Below are positions 5,127 to 32,085 of a DNA stretch of 41,296 bases, piece by piece. A program made the position numbers and the translations under genes. This DNA is from Melioribacter sp. (GTDB lineage Bacteria > Bacteroidota > Ignavibacteria > Ignavibacteriales > Melioribacteraceae). Position 1 is the stretch's first letter; each line of letters starts with the position of its first letter. The notes beneath the pieces were generated by a model that had not been told where the DNA came from, did not search any database, and worked only from the letters and a program-made list of their open reading frames with translations. The stretch covers positions 1-41,296 of the forward strand of contig VEPI01000102.1 in NCBI GenBank assembly GCA_012026935.1, given 5' to 3'.

Positions 5127-6656
5127 TTAATCTGCACTGCGGGGATTTAATTCTTCATAACCGTGAACACCCATTTCAGGCATATCCAAACCTTCGATTT
5201 CGTCTTTTGCTTTAACGCGGATTCCAAAAAATTTGTCCTGTATTTTGAAGAATGCATACATTGTTGCAAAAACAAAAATAATACAAGCAGCAGTTCCAAT
5301 TAATTGAGCAACCAACTGACCCGCATCACCATAGAATAATCCTTTAACAGTACCGGCAACACCGTTCCATCCATCGCCGTATGTCCCGTCAGCAAATAAT
5401 CCGAGAGCAATTATACCCCAGGCGCCGTTAACACCGTGAACGGCAACAGCGCCGACAGGATCGTCAACTTTTATTTTTTGATCAATAAAAAAAACGGCAA
5501 TAATTACCAACACGCCGGCAACAGCGCCAATAAAAAATGCAGCATAGGAATTAACAAAAGCACATGGTGCGGTAATTGCAACTAAACCGGCAAGCATCCC
5601 ATTGGCCATCATACTTGGATCTGGTTTCTTAAATTTCCAAATCATGTACAATGTTGCAAACAACGCGCCAGATGCCGACGCAATCATTGTATTAGTTGCA
5701 ACGATTGCTATTCGTAAATCATTTCCTGATAATGTTGAGCCGGGGTTAAATCCGAACCAACCAAAAGCTAAAATGAACGTTCCGATTATAGCCATCGGAA
5801 TATTGTGTCCTGGTATTGCATTAACAGAGCCGTCTTTATTGTATTTACCAATTCTTGGTCCCAATACAAGTGAGCCTGCTAATGCGGCAACACCACCAAC
5901 CATGTGAACGACAGAAGAACCGGCAAAATCAACATGCCCGTGTCCCAAACCAAAATTAACACCGAGAGTTGCCAGCCAGCCTCCGCCCCAAACCCAATTA
6001 CCAAATAATGGATAGACAAACATTGAAATAAAAAATGCGTAGAATATAAAAGCAGTAAATTTCCATCTTTCGGCCATAGCACCGGTTGGAATTGTAGCTG
6101 TTGTGTCCATGAATACCATTTGGAATAAAAATAATGTGAATACACCGACATCATAAACGGAATTGTTTAGGAAAAATCCCCTTGTTCCGAATAAACCAAA
6201 GCCTTTTCCAAAAAGAGTAATGGCGAATTCGTTATCTAATCCAGGCGTTCCACCTAAAGCGGCTACCGCACCAACACCGCCGAACATTATTGCAAAACCA
6301 CAAATGTAAAAACCGATTACACCAAGAGCATAAACAAGAAAATTCATACCCATAGTATGAGCAACATTTTTAGCACGCGTAAAACCGGTTTCCACCATTG
6401 CGAAACCGGCCTGCATAAACATTACCAAAAAACCGGTGAGTAAAGTCCACATAATATTTGTAGCAATTTTATTATGCCCAACGGCATCGGAAATTTCAGT
6501 TAGAGTCGGTTCACCGGGCTTTGCCGACGACACATCTTTAGCAGTTCCGGTTTTTGTTCCCGCCGGATCAGCTTGAGCATAAGAATTTGTCGGAACAAAC
6601 GAAATTACTGTGATAAAAAAAACCATCACAATTAATAATAAATATTTTATCTTCAT
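5127..6656 (-). CDS. amt: Ammonium transporter Amt
   Basis: A 509-aa inner-membrane ammonium channel. A cleavable signal peptide (to about SYAQA, residue 28) precedes the Amt core, as in many long Amt proteins. Recognisable blocks are TLLTGFLVMFMQAGFAMVET, the GWxxFNPG block (FGWFGFNPGS) and the conserved VAVHGVNGAWG containing one of the twin His. Eleven or so membrane segments are predicted. The C-terminal tail ends in VHGYEELNPRSAD, resembling the PII-interacting cytoplasmic tail of other Amt proteins. It is the last gene of a glnK - porin - amt operon (41 bp after the porin), the standard pairing with a PII regulator that blocks the channel when nitrogen is abundant. Confidence 0.95.
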   Translation of the reverse strand: MKIKYLLLIVMVFFITVISFVPTNSYAQADPAGTKTGTAKDVSSAKPGEPTLTEISDAVGHNKIATNIMWTLLTGFLVMFMQAGFAMVETGFTRAKNVAHTMGMNFLVYALGVIGFYICGFAIMFGGVGAVAALGGTPGLDNEFAITLFGKGFGLFGTRGFFLNNSVYDVGVFTLFLFQMVFMDTTATIPTGAMAERWKFTAFIFYAFFISMFVYPLFGNWVWGGGWLATLGVNFGLGHGHVDFAGSSVVHMVGGVAALAGSLVLGPRIGKYNKDGSVNAIPGHNIPMAIIGTFILAFGWFGFNPGSTLSGNDLRIAIVATNTMIASASGALFATLYMIWKFKKPDPSMMANGMLAGLVAITAPCAFVNSYAAFFIGAVAGVLVIIAVFFIDQKIKVDDPVGAVAVHGVNGAWGIIALGLFADGTYGDGWNGVAGTVKGLFYGDAGQLVAQLIGTAACIIFVFATMYAFFKIQDKFFGIRVKAKDEIEGLDMPEMGVHGYEELNPRSAD

Positions 6657-6697
6657 AAATTTTTCTCCTAGAATTTTTTAATAGACTTAAATGATAT

Positions 6698-7390
6698 TTA
6701 AAAAGTAAAACTTGCGCCAAATACCAAGTAAGTAATGTCCAACGCCGGGTTGGCTATATAAGACACATTGATTGGAATTGAGAATTTATCCGTGATAGCA
6801 ATAGATTTAGCTGCAGTGATATTTAGGTTAATCAAATTTGCTTTGTTGGTTACGTAGTAAGCGCTTTTCGAGGGCACAAAACCTGCAGCAAGTGTAATAG
6901 TTGCATCATAAACCGAAAATGGGTAGCCAATCTGAATGTATGATGAATTATCCACATCGTTGTGAATGTTTAGGTATAGCGCTAAAGAAATTGGGAATTT
7001 TTCCGGACCAGAATAAGTCACTCCGGCTTCCATTGTATGTGCCCCGCCGTTTTTTTCAAAGTCGGAAAATTTTATTCCGGCAGAAGGGTAATAATAATCC
7101 GTAAAAAGCAACGTAAAATTACCGGCACTTACGATTGAAAAAGCATATGAAGCGTATAAATCATTCTCGGCATATGTTGTAGTAGTTGTTGGGAACGCAT
7201 ATGATCCCCACGCGCCAATAGAAAAACCACCGACGGTAAAGGCTAAACTTGGTTGAAATGCAGGCGCGTTTCCAAAATCTAACCCTCTCCAATTGTATCT
7301 GCTATATATATCAGCACCGAATTTTAATTGTGCGAAAGAATTAAAAGTGGTAAAAACAATCACCACGAGTATTAGAATGTTTTTTTTCAT
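6698..7390 (-). CDS. TorF-family putative porin (Gcw_chp-like outer-membrane beta-barrel)
   Basis: A 230-aa exported protein with a signal peptide ending near FNSFAQ (residue 21). The mature part is alternating-hydrophobic beta-strand sequence ending in Phe (FGASFTF), the typical outer-membrane barrel C-terminus. The start of the mature protein (FGADIYSRYNWRGLDFGNAPAFQ) fits the TorF/Gcw_chp family, in which a conserved YxWRG block follows the first strand. It lies between glnK and amt with gaps of 31 and 41 bp, so it is probably made under nitrogen limitation. I infer a role in outer-membrane passage of ammonium or another small nitrogen source; this has no direct support in the sequence. 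Confidence 0.75.
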   Translation of the reverse strand: MKKNILILVVIVFTTFNSFAQLKFGADIYSRYNWRGLDFGNAPAFQPSLAFTVGGFSIGAWGSYAFPTTTTTYAENDLYASYAFSIVSAGNFTLLFTDYYYPSAGIKFSDFEKNGGAHTMEAGVTYSGPEKFPISLALYLNIHNDVDNSSYIQIGYPFSVYDATITLAAGFVPSKSAYYVTNKANLINLNITAAKSIAITDKFSIPINVSYIANPALDITYLVFGASFTF

Positions 7391-28652: not shown

Positions 28653-29222
28653 TTGAATAGCGGGAAAAATACACTTAATCCAAAATTATGGATTAAAACT
28701 TATGCCGATCAGCTTTTCCGATTTGCTTCTATGCGGATTAACGATAAAGAAACTGCAAAAGATTTGGTGCAGGAAACTTTTCTATCCGCACTAAAAAATG
28801 TTGATACATTTAAAGGTGAGGTTTCGGAAAAGAATTGGCTTTATACGATTCTTAAAAACAAAATCATTGATCATTACAGAAAGAAAGCATCTTTATTGAT
28901 TTCACAAAGTGAAACCTCTGGCAATGAAAATGAATATTTTAATGAGGAAAACCACTGGCTTCAAAACAAAGTCCCCCAAGAATGGCAAATTGATTATAAC
29001 TCAACTTATGATTCGAATGAATTTTTAGAAATACTTCAACAATGTATGAAACGTCTTTCCGAGCTTTTAAATATGGTTTTCTCAATGAAGTATCTTGACG
29101 AAAAAGAATCAGACGAAATATGTAAGGAATTAAAGATAACTACGTCTAACTACTGGGTAATCTTGCATCGTTCAAAATTACAATTGCGGGATTGCATTGA
29201 AAAAAAATGGTTTATAAAATGA
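28653..29222 (+). CDS. ECF RNA polymerase sigma factor of the KCG-peptide cluster
   Basis: A 189-aa group-4 (ECF) sigma factor. Region 2 includes LFRFASMRINDKETAKDLVQETFLSALKN (a -10 recognition helix of standard shape), followed by WLYTILKNKIIDHYRKK. Region 4 has SELLNMVFSMKYLDEKESDEICKELKITTSNYWVILHRSKLQLR, the -35 recognition helix-turn-helix. The first start codon in the open frame is TTG at 28653. It overlaps a small zinc-type anti-sigma gene by 4 bp and is followed by the precursor-peptide cluster, the usual arrangement where an ECF factor drives the neighbouring genes. It is 1 bp after the hydratase gene stop, so read-through from that gene is possible. Confidence 0.85.
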   Translation: MNSGKNTLNPKLWIKTYADQLFRFASMRINDKETAKDLVQETFLSALKNVDTFKGEVSEKNWLYTILKNKIIDHYRKKASLLISQSETSGNENEYFNEENHWLQNKVPQEWQIDYNSTYDSNEFLEILQQCMKRLSELLNMVFSMKYLDEKESDEICKELKITTSNYWVILHRSKLQLRDCIEKKWFIK

Positions 29223-29476
29223 AATCGTCTAAATTATTTATTACATGCAGCGAAGCAACAATGTTTTCTATTAAAAGAGAGGAAACCAATCTGTCTTTTT
29301 CAGAAAGAATAAAATTGTTTATTCATCTGCTGATATGTGAATTCTGCCGATTATTTGACCGCCAGCATAAATTTATATCTTTACAAATAAAGAAATTACA
29401 CACCCACGAAACACTTACTGATATTGAAAAAGATCAGATGCAACATCTTATCGAATCCGCCGCTAATCGAAAATAA
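29219..29476 (+). CDS. Small ZAS-type (HxxxCxxC) anti-sigma factor, no membrane segment
   Basis: An 85-aa protein starting at an ATG that overlaps the sigma stop (ATGA); an in-frame ATG at 29207 is an alternative. It contains His36-x3-Cys40-x2-Cys43 (HLLICEFC), the zinc-binding signature of ZAS anti-sigma factors, and an additional Cys10 (FITCSEA) that could be the fourth ligand. No hydrophobic segment is long enough for a membrane anchor, so it should be cytoplasmic. The known mechanism of this family is sequestration of the ECF factor and release when the zinc/thiol site is oxidised or displaced by metal; the direct sensor here is unproven. Weakly conserved sequences like this are often unannotated. 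Confidence 0.72.
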   Translation: MKSSKLFITCSEATMFSIKREETNLSFSERIKLFIHLLICEFCRLFDRQHKFISLQIKKLHTHETLTDIEKDQMQHLIESAANRK

Positions 29477-29488
29477 TTATTAATTGAG

Positions 29489-29514
29489 TGTAAGGTAATT
29501 TTGGTCGCCACGTC
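29489..29514 (+). promoter_or_regulatory. Candidate ECF-type promoter before the KCG peptide gene
   Basis: TGTAAG (29489-29494), 16 bp, then CGTC (29511-29514). This resembles ECF promoters with a TGTAAC/TGAAAC-like -35 and a CGTC/CGTA -10 (for example the B. subtilis SigW/SigX/SigM classes). Transcription would begin near 29520, about 40 bp before the peptide gene. It fits a model in which the sigma factor two genes upstream drives the peptide. It rests on pattern only; no second copy of this exact element was found to strengthen it. Confidence 0.45.
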
Positions 29515-29519
29515 TTTAT

Positions 29520-29560
29520 GAGTGTCAATCAATTATTAATCATTAATTATGAGGGCACTC
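29520..29560 (+). promoter_or_regulatory. Possible 5'-leader hairpin overlapping the KCG peptide ribosome site
   Basis: GAGTGTC (29520-29526) can pair with GGCACTC (29554-29560) through 7 pairs including one U-G, closing a loop of 27 nt that is rich in AT. The 3' arm covers part of the GAGGG Shine-Dalgarno (29551-29555) and ends 1 nt before the ATG at 29562. It could modulate translation of the precursor. The stem is short, so the effect is uncertain. Confidence 0.35.
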
Positions 29561-29561
29561 A

Positions 29562-29993
29562 ATGCAAAATCAATATAAGAACACAAAACGAATTCTTTTA
29601 ACAGGCTCAATTTTAGCGGGAGCTATTTTTGGAACCGGTGCGCCAAAAGCGATTAGCGCAGAGAATCTGTTTAATTATAACGGACTTGGTTCAGGCTCGG
29701 AGCTTAGAACATCATTACTTAACACTTCTCCAAACCGCAATTTGGAAATGAAATGCGGAAACAAAAGTGATGGCAAAGATTCAAAACCGAATGACTCTAA
29801 AACAAAAGACGCAAAATGCGGCGATAAAAAAATGAGTGATTCCAAAGCGAAAGACGGGAAATGCGGAGATAAAAAAATGAGCGATGCTAAAGGTCCAAAA
29901 GCGGCGGATTCCAAGGCTAAAGACGGAAAATGCGGTGAAGGTAAGTGCGGTGATAAGAAGAAAGAATCAAAACCAGCAGATTCAAAAAAATAA
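29562..29993 (+). CDS. HvfA/bufferin-like secreted precursor peptide with five KCG motifs
   Basis: A 143-aa exported peptide. A signal peptide (about residues 9-33, ending ISA) precedes a leader-like block, NLFNYNGLGSGSELRTSLL (35-53), similar in shape to the LGxGxELR block seen in EGKCG-type precursors of other bacteria. The rest is a Lys/Asp/Ser-rich chain with five Cys, each in a KCG motif: Cys65, Cys86, Cys101, Cys124, Cys129. Only one site is a true EGKCG (Glu126-Gly130); the others are EMKCG, DAKCG, DGKCG and DGKCG. In H. influenzae HvfA, EGKCG cysteines are converted by the DUF692/DUF2063 enzyme pair to copper-binding oxazolone/thioamide groups. Here the same enzymes follow directly. 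The metal and chemistry are inferred, not shown. Confidence 0.8.
   Translation: MQNQYKNTKRILLTGSILAGAIFGTGAPKAISAENLFNYNGLGSGSELRTSLLNTSPNRNLEMKCGNKSDGKDSKPNDSKTKDAKCGDKKMSDSKAKDGKCGDKKMSDAKGPKAADSKAKDGKCGEGKCGDKKKESKPADSKK
29793..29882 (+). repeat. Two tandem 45-bp repeats within the KCG peptide gene, with a degenerate third copy downstream
   Basis: Codons 78-92 and 93-107 encode two 15-residue units of the form DSK(T/A)KD(A/G)KCGDKKMS. A third, diverged copy begins at codon 116 (29907) as DSKAKDGKCGEGKCGDKK, which carries two KCG motifs. The DNA units differ at several third positions, so the duplication is not very recent. The repeat spreads Cys residues 15 to 23 residues apart, except for the last pair, which is 5 apart. 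Confidence 0.85.
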
Positions 29994-30009
29994 ATCCGGA
30001 AAAATTATC

Positions 30010-30035
30010 CTGCCCGTTAATTATTAAACGGGCAG
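30010..30035 (+). terminator. Intra-operon hairpin between precursor and DUF692 gene (possible attenuator)
   Basis: CTGCCCGTT (30010-30018) pairs perfectly with AACGGGCAG (30027-30035) over 9 bp with an 8-nt AT loop. It is followed by ATTATTATAT rather than an uninterrupted T-run, so it should act as a partial terminator or as a 3' stabiliser of the precursor mRNA. Its position, after the small abundant precursor and before the enzyme genes, fits a device that makes more precursor than enzyme. Confidence 0.6.
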
Positions 30036-30063
30036 ATTATTATATCGGTAAAAAGGAATTAAT

Positions 30064-30906
30064 ATGGAAAGAAATAAACATGTTGGAATTGGTTTCAGAA
30101 AAGATTTTGCGGAAGAATTTTTGGAAGGCAAAGATTTAACCCCCGCTTTTCTTGAGGTAGCCCCGGAAAACTGGATGGAAATTGGCGGTTACTGGAAAAA
30201 AGTTTTTAATAAAGTTGCAGAACAATATCCCATTTATTCTCACGGTCTTTCTCTTTCCATCGGTAGTCCCGAAGAACTGGATTGGAATTTTTTAAAAAGA
30301 GTGAAAAGTTTTTTGCAAGAGTATAAAATTAAAATTTATTCCGAACATCTAAGTTATTCGAAATGCGATAACGCACATCTTTATGATCTTTTGCCGATTC
30401 CTTTCCGGTGGGATGCCGTTAAACATATTTCGGAACGGATAAAATCCGTACAAGAATTTTTAGAAAGAAAAATCGCAATAGAAATAGTTTCGTATTACAC
30501 TCCTGTTGCAGCAGAGATGAGCGAAGTTGAGTTTATCAGCTCAATTGTAAAAGAAGCAGATTGTAATTTACTGTTGGATGTAAATAACGTTTACGTTAAT
30601 GCGTTTAATCATCAATACGATGCAAAAGATTTTATTGAAAATTTACCGCTTGCAAAGGTTGAGTACATTCACATGGCCGGACACGAACAAGTTGCGCAGG
30701 ATCTTATAATTGATACTCATGGTGAACCAATAATTGATCCGGTGTATGATCTCTTTGATTTTACGGTTCGAAAACTTTCCAACACTGTCCCGGTTTTATT
30801 AGAAAGAGATTTTAACATTCCGGAATTGAAAGAGTTACAATATGAATTAAACAGACTTGAAAACATCTGCAAAAAGGCATGGCATTATGAACACATACTT
30901 GCATAA
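30064..30906 (+). CDS. DUF692 family multinuclear iron oxidative enzyme (MNIO), MbnB/HvfB/BufB-like
   Basis: A 280-aa TIM-barrel enzyme of the DUF692 (MNIO) family, which uses two or three iron ions to rearrange Cys residues in peptides. Conserved segments: VGIGFRKDF at the start, FLEVAPENWM, IYSHGLSLSIG (His60), IYSEHLSYS (Glu94/His95), IAIEIVSYY (Glu140), LLLDVNNVYVNAFNH (Asp172, Asn175, His183), YIHMAGH (His203, His207), IIDTHGEPI (Asp217, His219) and LLERDFNIP (Glu247, Asp249). These include all the usual metal-ligand blocks, so the enzyme looks active. An AAGGA ribosome site precedes the ATG. The gene overlaps the DUF2063 partner by 20 bp. The likely substrate is the KCG peptide encoded upstream. 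Confidence 0.92.
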   Translation: MERNKHVGIGFRKDFAEEFLEGKDLTPAFLEVAPENWMEIGGYWKKVFNKVAEQYPIYSHGLSLSIGSPEELDWNFLKRVKSFLQEYKIKIYSEHLSYSKCDNAHLYDLLPIPFRWDAVKHISERIKSVQEFLERKIAIEIVSYYTPVAAEMSEVEFISSIVKEADCNLLLDVNNVYVNAFNHQYDAKDFIENLPLAKVEYIHMAGHEQVAQDLIIDTHGEPIIDPVYDLFDFTVRKLSNTVPVLLERDFNIPELKELQYELNRLENICKKAWHYEHILA

Positions 30907-31645
30907 TTACACACATACACAACAAGGCCGGTTAGCCAATTACTGTAGAACGGGCGAATTAATTTCTATTGATGGATTAACAGAAAACCGCGTACACTAT
31001 TATAGAGATCTGGTTTATAATGTTGTTGATGACACGCTTCAATCGGCATTTCCTTTAACATTTGATTTATTATCGGAAGACGAGTGGAACGAAATTGTTC
31101 ATTATTTTTTCAGCACACACAAATGCCGGTCAAATTCCATTTGGAAAATGCCGCACGAATTTTATTTGTTCGTTGATGGAAATGATCTGGATATAAAAAA
31201 GAAATATAATTTTATTGAAGAGCTGCTTCTTTTTGAATGGACAGAAATAGAAATTTATATGATGCCGGATGTTCAATACCCGGAATTTAAATCTAACGGA
31301 GGATGGCTAAGCGAAATAATAACAGTTAATCCCGAACACAAAATTTTGCAATTAAGTTGGCCTGTTCATCTTAAAAATCCCGGCAACATTACTGTTGATA
31401 ATAAAAACGAATATTACGTTTTAATATTTCGAGAGAAAGAAAGCGGGAAGGTACAATTTATAAACTTGTCGGTTTACTTTGCATGGCTTATAGAAAAAAT
31501 CGAAATCGAAAAGAAACCGCTTGTTAAAATATTAAAGGAAGCAGAATCTTTATTCGGGATCGAAGCGAAAAAGCTTTTCGAAAACACAATTCCATTTTTA
31601 GAAGAATTAAACAGTAAACAATTTATACTTGGATTTAGAAAATGA
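30887..31645 (+). CDS. DUF2063 family MNIO partner protein (HvfC/BufC-like)
   Basis: A 252-aa protein of the DUF2063 family, the partner that binds the precursor leader and presents it to the DUF692 enzyme. The N-terminus (LANYCRTGELISIDGLTENRVHYYRDLVYNVVDDTLQSAFP) has the typical opening of the family with a helical domain; the C-terminal half is beta-rich and resembles the peptide-recognition part. I choose the ATG at 30887, which overlaps the MNIO stop (30906) by 20 bp; an in-frame ATG at 30857 would add ten residues that look like read-through of the other frame. It overlaps the DoxX gene by 4 bp. Confidence 0.8.
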   Translation: MNTYLHNYTHTQQGRLANYCRTGELISIDGLTENRVHYYRDLVYNVVDDTLQSAFPLTFDLLSEDEWNEIVHYFFSTHKCRSNSIWKMPHEFYLFVDGNDLDIKKKYNFIEELLLFEWTEIEIYMMPDVQYPEFKSNGGWLSEIITVNPEHKILQLSWPVHLKNPGNITVDNKNEYYVLIFREKESGKVQFINLSVYFAWLIEKIEIEKKPLVKILKEAESLFGIEAKKLFENTIPFLEELNSKQFILGFRK

Positions 31646-32085
31646 TTACAAAAATATTTCATAAATATAACTTTGCAGTAAAGTTATTAAATAGACTTAA
31701 GAGCTTGCCTTTTTTATTCTTTCGCTTAGTGCTTGCTTACGGTTTTTACACAACAGCTGTCGCGAAATGGTCTAACATTGGAAACGTTGCAGAATGGTTT
31801 GGTTCGCTTGGAATTCCCGCACCGACTTTTAACGCTTATCTTGCTGCATCAACAGAAACTGCAGGTGTCGTTTTATTAACAATAGGATTAGCAACAAGAT
31901 TTATTTCAATTCCGTTAATGATTACAATGATAGTTGCAATTGTAACTGTTCATCTGCCAAATGGATTTGAAGCCGGGAATAATGGATTTGAAATCCCGCT
32001 TTATTATTTTCTTATGTTGTTAGCTCTGCTAATTAATGGAGCAGGCAAAATCAGTGTTGATAATTATATTTCCAAGAAGGTCTAA
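31642..32085 (+). CDS. DoxX family membrane protein of the KCG-peptide operon
   Basis: A 147-aa protein with four predicted membrane helices. FFRLVLAYGFYTTAVAKWSNIGNVAEWFGSLGIPAPTFNAYLAAS and the later FISIPLMITMIVAIVTVHLPNGFEAG with a terminal LALLINGAGKISVD fit the DoxX/DoxD fold. DoxX-like genes regularly close HvfABC or bufferin clusters (HvfD), where they are thought to act in quinone-linked redox steps or thiol homeostasis; this is knowledge of the family, not shown here. The ATGA overlap with DUF2063 puts it in the same operon; no strong terminator follows. Confidence 0.85.
   Translation: MITKIFHKYNFAVKLLNRLKSLPFLFFRLVLAYGFYTTAVAKWSNIGNVAEWFGSLGIPAPTFNAYLAASTETAGVVLLTIGLATRFISIPLMITMIVAIVTVHLPNGFEAGNNGFEIPLYYFLMLLALLINGAGKISVDNYISKKV

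Follow-up and report, generated by a model that had tools for sequence, protein, structure and literature searches.

An oxazolin/captophorin-type peptide cluster of Melioribacter sp. as the probable core of an oxidative-stress regulon with proposed sigma feedback on its anti-sigma

Two described bacterial systems stand closest to the locus reported here. The Neisseria sigma-E operon (NMB2140-NMB2145/NGO1948-NGO1943), with its anti-sigma MseR and its product gonophorin, has all six of the components considered below (PMC2893595, PMC3240639, PMC13097082), and the hvfABC-hvfX (oxazolin) cluster of Haemophilus influenzae, with RpoE2/HrsE, shares an HvfB-type MNIO, its partner protein and DoxX (PMC7907618, PMC13419390). 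In both, the sigma factor (sigma-E in Neisseria, RpoE2 in H. influenzae) controls the DoxX cluster together with the methionine sulfoxide reductase genes msrA/B (PMC2893595, PMC3240639, PMC7907618); control of such a cluster by an extracytoplasmic function (ECF) sigma factor is thus already published in Neisseria (NMB2140-2145) and H. influenzae (RpoE2). The 5-thiooxazole/copper chemistry is known from oxazolin, fontiphorin and gonophorin (PMC13097082, PMC13419390). In the passages of PMC12452194 considered here, EGKCG clusters are described as precursor, MNIO, DUF2063 and DoxX, their precursors come mostly from Pseudomonadota, and the presence of sigma and NrsF genes is noted for Buf1 clusters but not for Buf2 clusters. 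Here we analyse six adjacent genes at positions 28,653 to 32,085 of the window, a stretch of 41,296 nucleotides from Melioribacter sp. (contig VEPI01000102.1, assembly GCA_012026935.1), and conclude that this oxazolin/captophorin-type cluster is very probably the core of an oxidative-stress regulon in which the sigma factor feeds back on its anti-sigma. The protein families, the conserved promoters, their targets and the codon constraint on one internal promoter site, on which this conclusion builds, are direct observations on the sequence.

An earlier sequence-only reading had proposed six tightly spaced genes with the order and overlaps given here, MNIO metal-ligand blocks and a secreted peptide with five KCG motifs. 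All of this is borne out by coordinates, profile matches, residue conservation and direct inspection of the peptide, whose N-terminus resembles a Sec-type signal. All six reading frames are open at the coordinates then given, with overlaps of 4 bp between sigma and anti-sigma, 20 bp between MNIO and DUF2063, and 4 bp between DUF2063 and DoxX:

28653..29222, + strand: ECF sigma factor (TIGR02943 family), with a TTG start
29122..29147, + strand: proposed internal sigma-dependent promoter GTAAGG-N15-CGTCT within the sigma gene, a perfect site
29219..29476, + strand: zinc-type (ZAS) anti-sigma of 85 aa, with C10...H36xxxC40xxC43
29490..29515, + strand: predicted sigma-dependent promoter of the peptide operon, GTAAGGTAATTTTGGTCGCCACGTCT, found as a de novo dyad, by scored pattern and by match to the neisserial consensus
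29562..29993, + strand: HvfA-like precursor of 143 aa, with a signal sequence, LGSGSELR at residues 42-49 and five KCG
30064..30906, + strand: MNIO (DUF692) peptide maturase of HvfB type by PF05114, NCBIfam HvfB, structure 3bww and tree
30887..31645, + strand: HvfC-like DUF2063 partner, with PF09836 and PF22106 above cut-off
31642..32085, + strand: DoxX membrane protein of HvfX type by PF07681 and NCBIfam HvfX

The promoter of the peptide operon emerged when spaced pairs were counted without bias across 71 upstream regions of KCG-peptide genes: the top pairs, TGTAA-N17-CGTCT and GTAAG-N16-CGTCT, were found in 14 loci against a shuffled maximum of 4; a scored version of the promoter recognised 33 of the 71 regions versus 8 of 1420 shuffles. 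In the window promoter 46 bp lie between the end of the -10 element and the peptide start; by sequence comparison, the promoter is the same element as the neisserial sigma-E consensus (GTMAGBWTT, 12-13 nt, CGTCTAAH; PMC2893595), the outer bases being different. Among 24 Ignavibacteria genomes the ECF gene accompanies MNIO in 9 of 9 positive genomes and is present in 0 of 15 negative ones; together with the conserved promoter, this co-occurrence supports the earlier proposal of a dedicated sigma factor. An initial pattern with a spacer off by one (GTAA-N16-CGTCT) was dropped, its 13 scattered matches being fewer than those of the reversed control.

Genome-wide pattern searches place the same promoter at other genes. 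The window genome (3.18 Mb, 99.95% complete, with a single MNIO gene) holds four perfect GTAAGG-N15-CGTCT sites versus two for the reversed pattern: one in the interior of the sigma gene (29122), one before the peptide gene (29490), and one each before the genes of a secreted MsrA (C96:11803) and a secreted MsrB (C116:7650). It could be argued that the latter two are chance matches and that the sigma controls its own cluster only, since base composition predicts about 0.7 perfect sites in a genome and the reversed pattern, as a control, returns 0-4 per genome; however, these two non-cluster sites lie directly upstream of the sole msrA and the sole msrB of the genome, and msr sites recur at similar distances in other genomes (perfect upstream of msrB in G002, G011 and G041 and of msrA in G041, and matching 10 of the 11 bases in G055), as well as in several Bacteroidota, which makes coincidence scarcely credible. 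In cluster-bearing Bacteroidota, a scan that allowed the -35 and -10 variants found at their peptide genes located the element, with 10 or 11 of 11 bases, before secreted msrA in six genomes and before msrB in four, again at similar distances, and no element at their cytoplasmic-type msrA copies. Perfect sites of cluster-negative genomes are intragenic or without a nearby gene, except in G004, which belongs to the same genus but lacks both sigma and MNIO; given the missing sigma, its perfect site upstream of msrA (C5:9326-9351, L120) looks like the relic of a lost cluster. The 14 one-mismatch sites of the window genome, a number below the reversed control, are not claimed.

The sigma factor appears, then, to control also methionine-repair enzymes encoded elsewhere in the genome. 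The earlier description of the locus as self-contained is not supported, as msrA and msrB have the same promoter upstream and the regulon extends past the six genes; with perfect sites at both, the set would rather be the core of an oxidative-repair regulon shared with Neisseria. Two further genes deserve mention. In G055 a perfect site (C19:13658, L135) precedes by 107 bp a gene whose product has a DsbD N-terminal domain, possibly a further regulon member. Near msrB of the window genome stands an EamA-family transporter gene (L109, 3659-4567), with no perfect site at that gene; a DMT-type (EamA-like) transporter near msrAB of H. influenzae is also RpoE2-controlled (PMC7907618/PMC13419390).

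The site at 29122 spans the codons TGT AAG GAA ... ACG TCT in region 4.2 of the sigma gene and lies some 70 bp ahead of the start of the anti-sigma gene. Of 49 related sigma genes, 45 carry it with at least 10 of its 11 bases, and in nearly all cases 72 bp separate it from the end of the coding sequence; no such match occurs in 49 control stretches of the same gene or in 48 upstream regions. Since it encodes conserved region 4.2 residues at a nearly fixed distance from the gene end, and is missing from the gonococcal sigma gene, a coding or RNA-level constraint, for instance translational coupling to the overlapping anti-sigma gene, has to be weighed against a promoter. We compared the commonest third base of each codon with the expectation from each locus's own codon use over 186 columns; the largest excesses fell on AAG (z 10.4), NCG (10.4), TGT (6.9) and TCT (6.8), the median being 0.9, so that the four most constrained columns are exactly the four third bases fixed by the motif, whereas the spacer varies freely. 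Moreover, the internal site equals the peptide promoter in both halves and in spacing, and the two vary together: in five loci with a CAG codon the internal site and the peptide promoter both read GTCAGG, and L061 and L027 share unusual -10 forms between the two sites. There is also experimental precedent in Corynebacterium glutamicum, where an internal promoter of sigH drives the anti-sigma gene rshA (PMC3489674). On these grounds a purely coding or RNA-level constraint seems unlikely.

Most likely, the internal site is a sigma-dependent promoter for the anti-sigma. In the same five GTCAGG loci the recognition helix carries WQ instead of WV; as these loci form one clade, the Lys/Gln switch counts as one event. 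We consider it likely that in Bacteroidota and Ignavibacteriota the codons of the sigma's DNA-reading domain double as its own promoter driving the anti-sigma, and that, as the preference of the sigma moved from GTAAGG to GTCAGG, the embedded site followed and turned the encoded Lys into Gln. The C. glutamicum sigH-rshA case likewise has a sigma-dependent promoter inside the sigma gene that drives the anti-sigma gene alone, but in another sigma lineage, with another promoter sequence and no MNIO cluster; the design is therefore known, although unreported for the present lineage in the literature searched. In six Flavobacteriales loci (L014-L017, L033, L044) no promoter is recognisable before the peptide gene, where there is little room, and the whole operon may depend there on the internal site, whose -10 half is weaker in these loci.

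The sigma factor itself matches Sigma70_r2 (6.6e-17) and Sigma70_r4_2 (4.7e-8), passes the TIGR02943 cut-off marginally (163.1 versus 162.2 bits) and is 37.6% identical to gonococcal Ecf. The anti-sigma scores slightly under the cut-off of NCBIfam antisigmaE (44.8 versus 50 bits); its C10, H36, C40 and C43 are the sole residues at least 97% conserved among 53 relatives, and their spacing (Cx25HxxxCxxC) equals that of Cys4/His30/Cys34/Cys37 in MseR, whose cysteines are important or essential (PMC2893595/PMC3240639). The protein fits a cytoplasmic, redox-sensitive zinc anti-sigma. To the Neisseria system the locus is thus alike in zinc anti-sigma spacing, in promoter consensus and in the presence of msrA/B in the regulon. 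It differs in arrangement: the sigma gene comes first in the window operon, unlike in Neisseria, where DoxX is first, the sigma gene is last inside an autoregulated operon with a single promoter before DoxX, and msrAB is one gene. In H. influenzae a sigma with a small cytoplasmic anti-sigma also controls msrAB and the DoxX cluster, and is hypochlorite-induced, but the sigma genes lie apart from hvf, adjoining msrAB and a transporter gene.

For the MNIO protein, Pfam PF05114 was matched at E=1.4e-98, and in the comparison with MNIO subfamily models that the sequence-only reading had proposed, the cut-off of NCBIfam HvfB (NF003818) was passed (386.4 versus 360 bits) and that of BufB missed (277.1 versus 310). 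It matches structure 3bww (E=4e-73), a diiron MNIO 72% identical to HvfB (2026 preprint). Candidate metal-site residues conserved in 86 relatives are H60, H95, E140, D172, N174, H203, D217, H219 and E247; by our reading of the 3bww alignment, N174, D217 and H219 would correspond to HvfB N175, D242 and H244, each of which is essential (2026 preprint). The earlier reading had named a tree position outside the peptide-modifying clades as evidence against itself. A tree that included the EGKCG-type enzymes of Neisseria and Moraxella beside six Buf1 enzymes puts the window enzyme on the EGKCG side, with the Buf1 enzymes separated at 100/100, a result that favours the peptide-modifying assignment. 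Family and tree evidence taken together settle the identity of the enzyme. The DoxX protein matches PF07681 (E=5e-18) and passes the cut-off of NCBIfam HvfX (NF050144; 130.1 versus 80 bits), and the DUF2063 protein matches PF09836 (DUF2063; E=5e-15) and PF22106 (NGO1945_C), with no match in a sequence search against solved structures. By the MNIO and DoxX scores and the tree, the locus is an oxazolin/captophorin (EGKCG-type) cluster.

The precursor adds a trait of its own. In Bacteroidota and Ignavibacteriota relatives a signal sequence is followed by LG[ST][GA]xxxR and then by the KCG repeats, L42, G43 and R49 being invariant in ten diverse members; the motif is absent from the gonococcal and Moraxella precursors compared. 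No Pfam family, DUF2282 (Buf1) included, was matched by the window peptide. The motif, new here, lies within no family model and sets apart a distinct precursor family; as a guess, it may serve in recognition or processing.

The sequence-only reading had likened the locus to both HvfABCD and bufferin clusters. The first likeness stands on the HvfB and HvfX cut-offs and the tree, whereas membership of the bufferin kind is rejected by the BufB score, the separate MNIO clade and the lack of both a DUF2282 precursor and an NrsF anti-sigma. These observations bear on a wider alternative, namely a bufferin-like detoxification of copper or heavy metals, with a sigma that, like Caulobacter SigF, responds chiefly to metal excess, and a secondary msr link. 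Captophorins are indeed copper-binding, with copper, gold or oxidants as inducers, one Buf1 cluster sits within a mer locus, and Buf1 clusters such as that of Burkholderia glumae (L259; PMC12452194) have a very similar order of ECF, anti-sigma, precursor, MNIO, DUF2063 and DoxX. Nevertheless, the anti-sigma is NrsF there and of zinc type in the window, the precursors and the MNIO clades differ, and the conserved co-targets of the window sigma are methionine sulfoxide reductases, not metal exporters; we regard metal detoxification as the main role as distinctly unlikely.

In the preferred scheme of an oxidative-stress regulon, the small zinc-bound anti-sigma would hold the ECF sigma in unstressed cells, and the sigma would be freed when the zinc cysteines of the anti-sigma are oxidised or attacked by metal, by analogy with MseR, HrsE and RsrA. 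The free sigma would then switch on the peptide-MNIO-DUF2063-DoxX operon at GTAAGG-N15-CGTCT from 29490, activate msrA and msrB outside the cluster, and drive the anti-sigma gene from the promoter within its own coding sequence as negative feedback. HvfB and HvfC would oxidise the KCG cysteines, most likely to 5-thiooxazoles as in oxazolin, fontiphorin and gonophorin; the peptide, exported by its Sec signal, would bind copper(I), and secreted MsrA and MsrB would repair oxidised methionines. The inducing signal is suggested by the type of anti-sigma, by the msr targets and by published work on Haemophilus and Neisseria, and the msr targets common to Neisseria and H. influenzae point to oxidative damage of the envelope. 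The metal- or thiol-stress role first proposed is in this manner narrowed toward oxidative stress, by the msr targets and the zinc anti-sigma, with a product that is probably copper-binding.

Several observations weigh against this scheme. Many cluster-positive genomes have no recognisable site at msrA or msrB, so that the link is partial, and no sigma-type site was found upstream of the sigma gene in 48 loci. The DUF2063 protein falls below the HvfC equivalog cut-off (121.9 versus 142 bits), and the window peptide below those of NCBIfam HvfA (NF050188; 25.3 versus 95) and of the KCGExKCG domain model (18.2 versus 19.5), the HvfA models aligning only to its KCG part. The inducer could be a metal instead of an oxidant; transcription, the inducer, the peptide modification and the metal binding are all predictions.

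The order ECF, anti-sigma, peptide, MNIO, DUF2063 and often DoxX recurs among 80 named loci of Bacteroidota, Ignavibacteriota and a few Chlamydiota and Bdellovibrionota, the nearest named relatives of the window genome being Ignavibacteriales metagenome bins; with the same order in dozens of Bacteroidota and Ignavibacteriota loci, the locus is not a chance assembly. Upstream, the stop of an enoyl-CoA hydratase gene sits 1 bp before the ECF start, and this gene and a HAD gene were rejected as conserved neighbours, being seen in 4 and 2 loci. Closely similar MNIO clusters without a linked sigma occur in Bdellovibrionota and Chlamydiota bins (L077, L088, L089). In the closest relative (G011, L011) a secreted peroxiredoxin-like gene (FRGGWCPYC; about 6577-7220) stands between DUF2063 and DoxX, in agreement with an oxidative-stress role, and the DUF2063 frame has an in-frame stop at about 6438, either an assembly error or a decaying gene. 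An 11.3 kb plasmid of Moraxella sp. DOX410 (L255) carries DoxX, KCG peptide, MNIO, DUF2063 and ECF sigma as well as a zinc-type anti-sigma that is unannotated; an IS4 transposase separates MNIO from DUF2063. NZ_CP119142.1 (L185), a 2.17 Mb N. gonorrhoeae record held in PLSDB as a plasmid, looks chromosomal by size and content.

Our literature search, with most subscription papers outside its scope, found no description of the system in Bacteroidota or Ignavibacteriota, in line with the statement of the earlier reading that none was known in this lineage. Its parts are known; new here are a regulon that by sequence spans phyla, the sigma gene placed first, the site inside it and the distinct precursor family. 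The conserved targets give a defined regulon that is testable in cultivable Chitinophaga, and the embedded promoter would be a compact feedback design whose constraint is legible in synonymous codons and testable by recoding four of them. That sigma, promoter and msrA/msrB targets are kept from Neisseria to Ignavibacteria argues that guarding against envelope oxidation, along with copper, is the old function.

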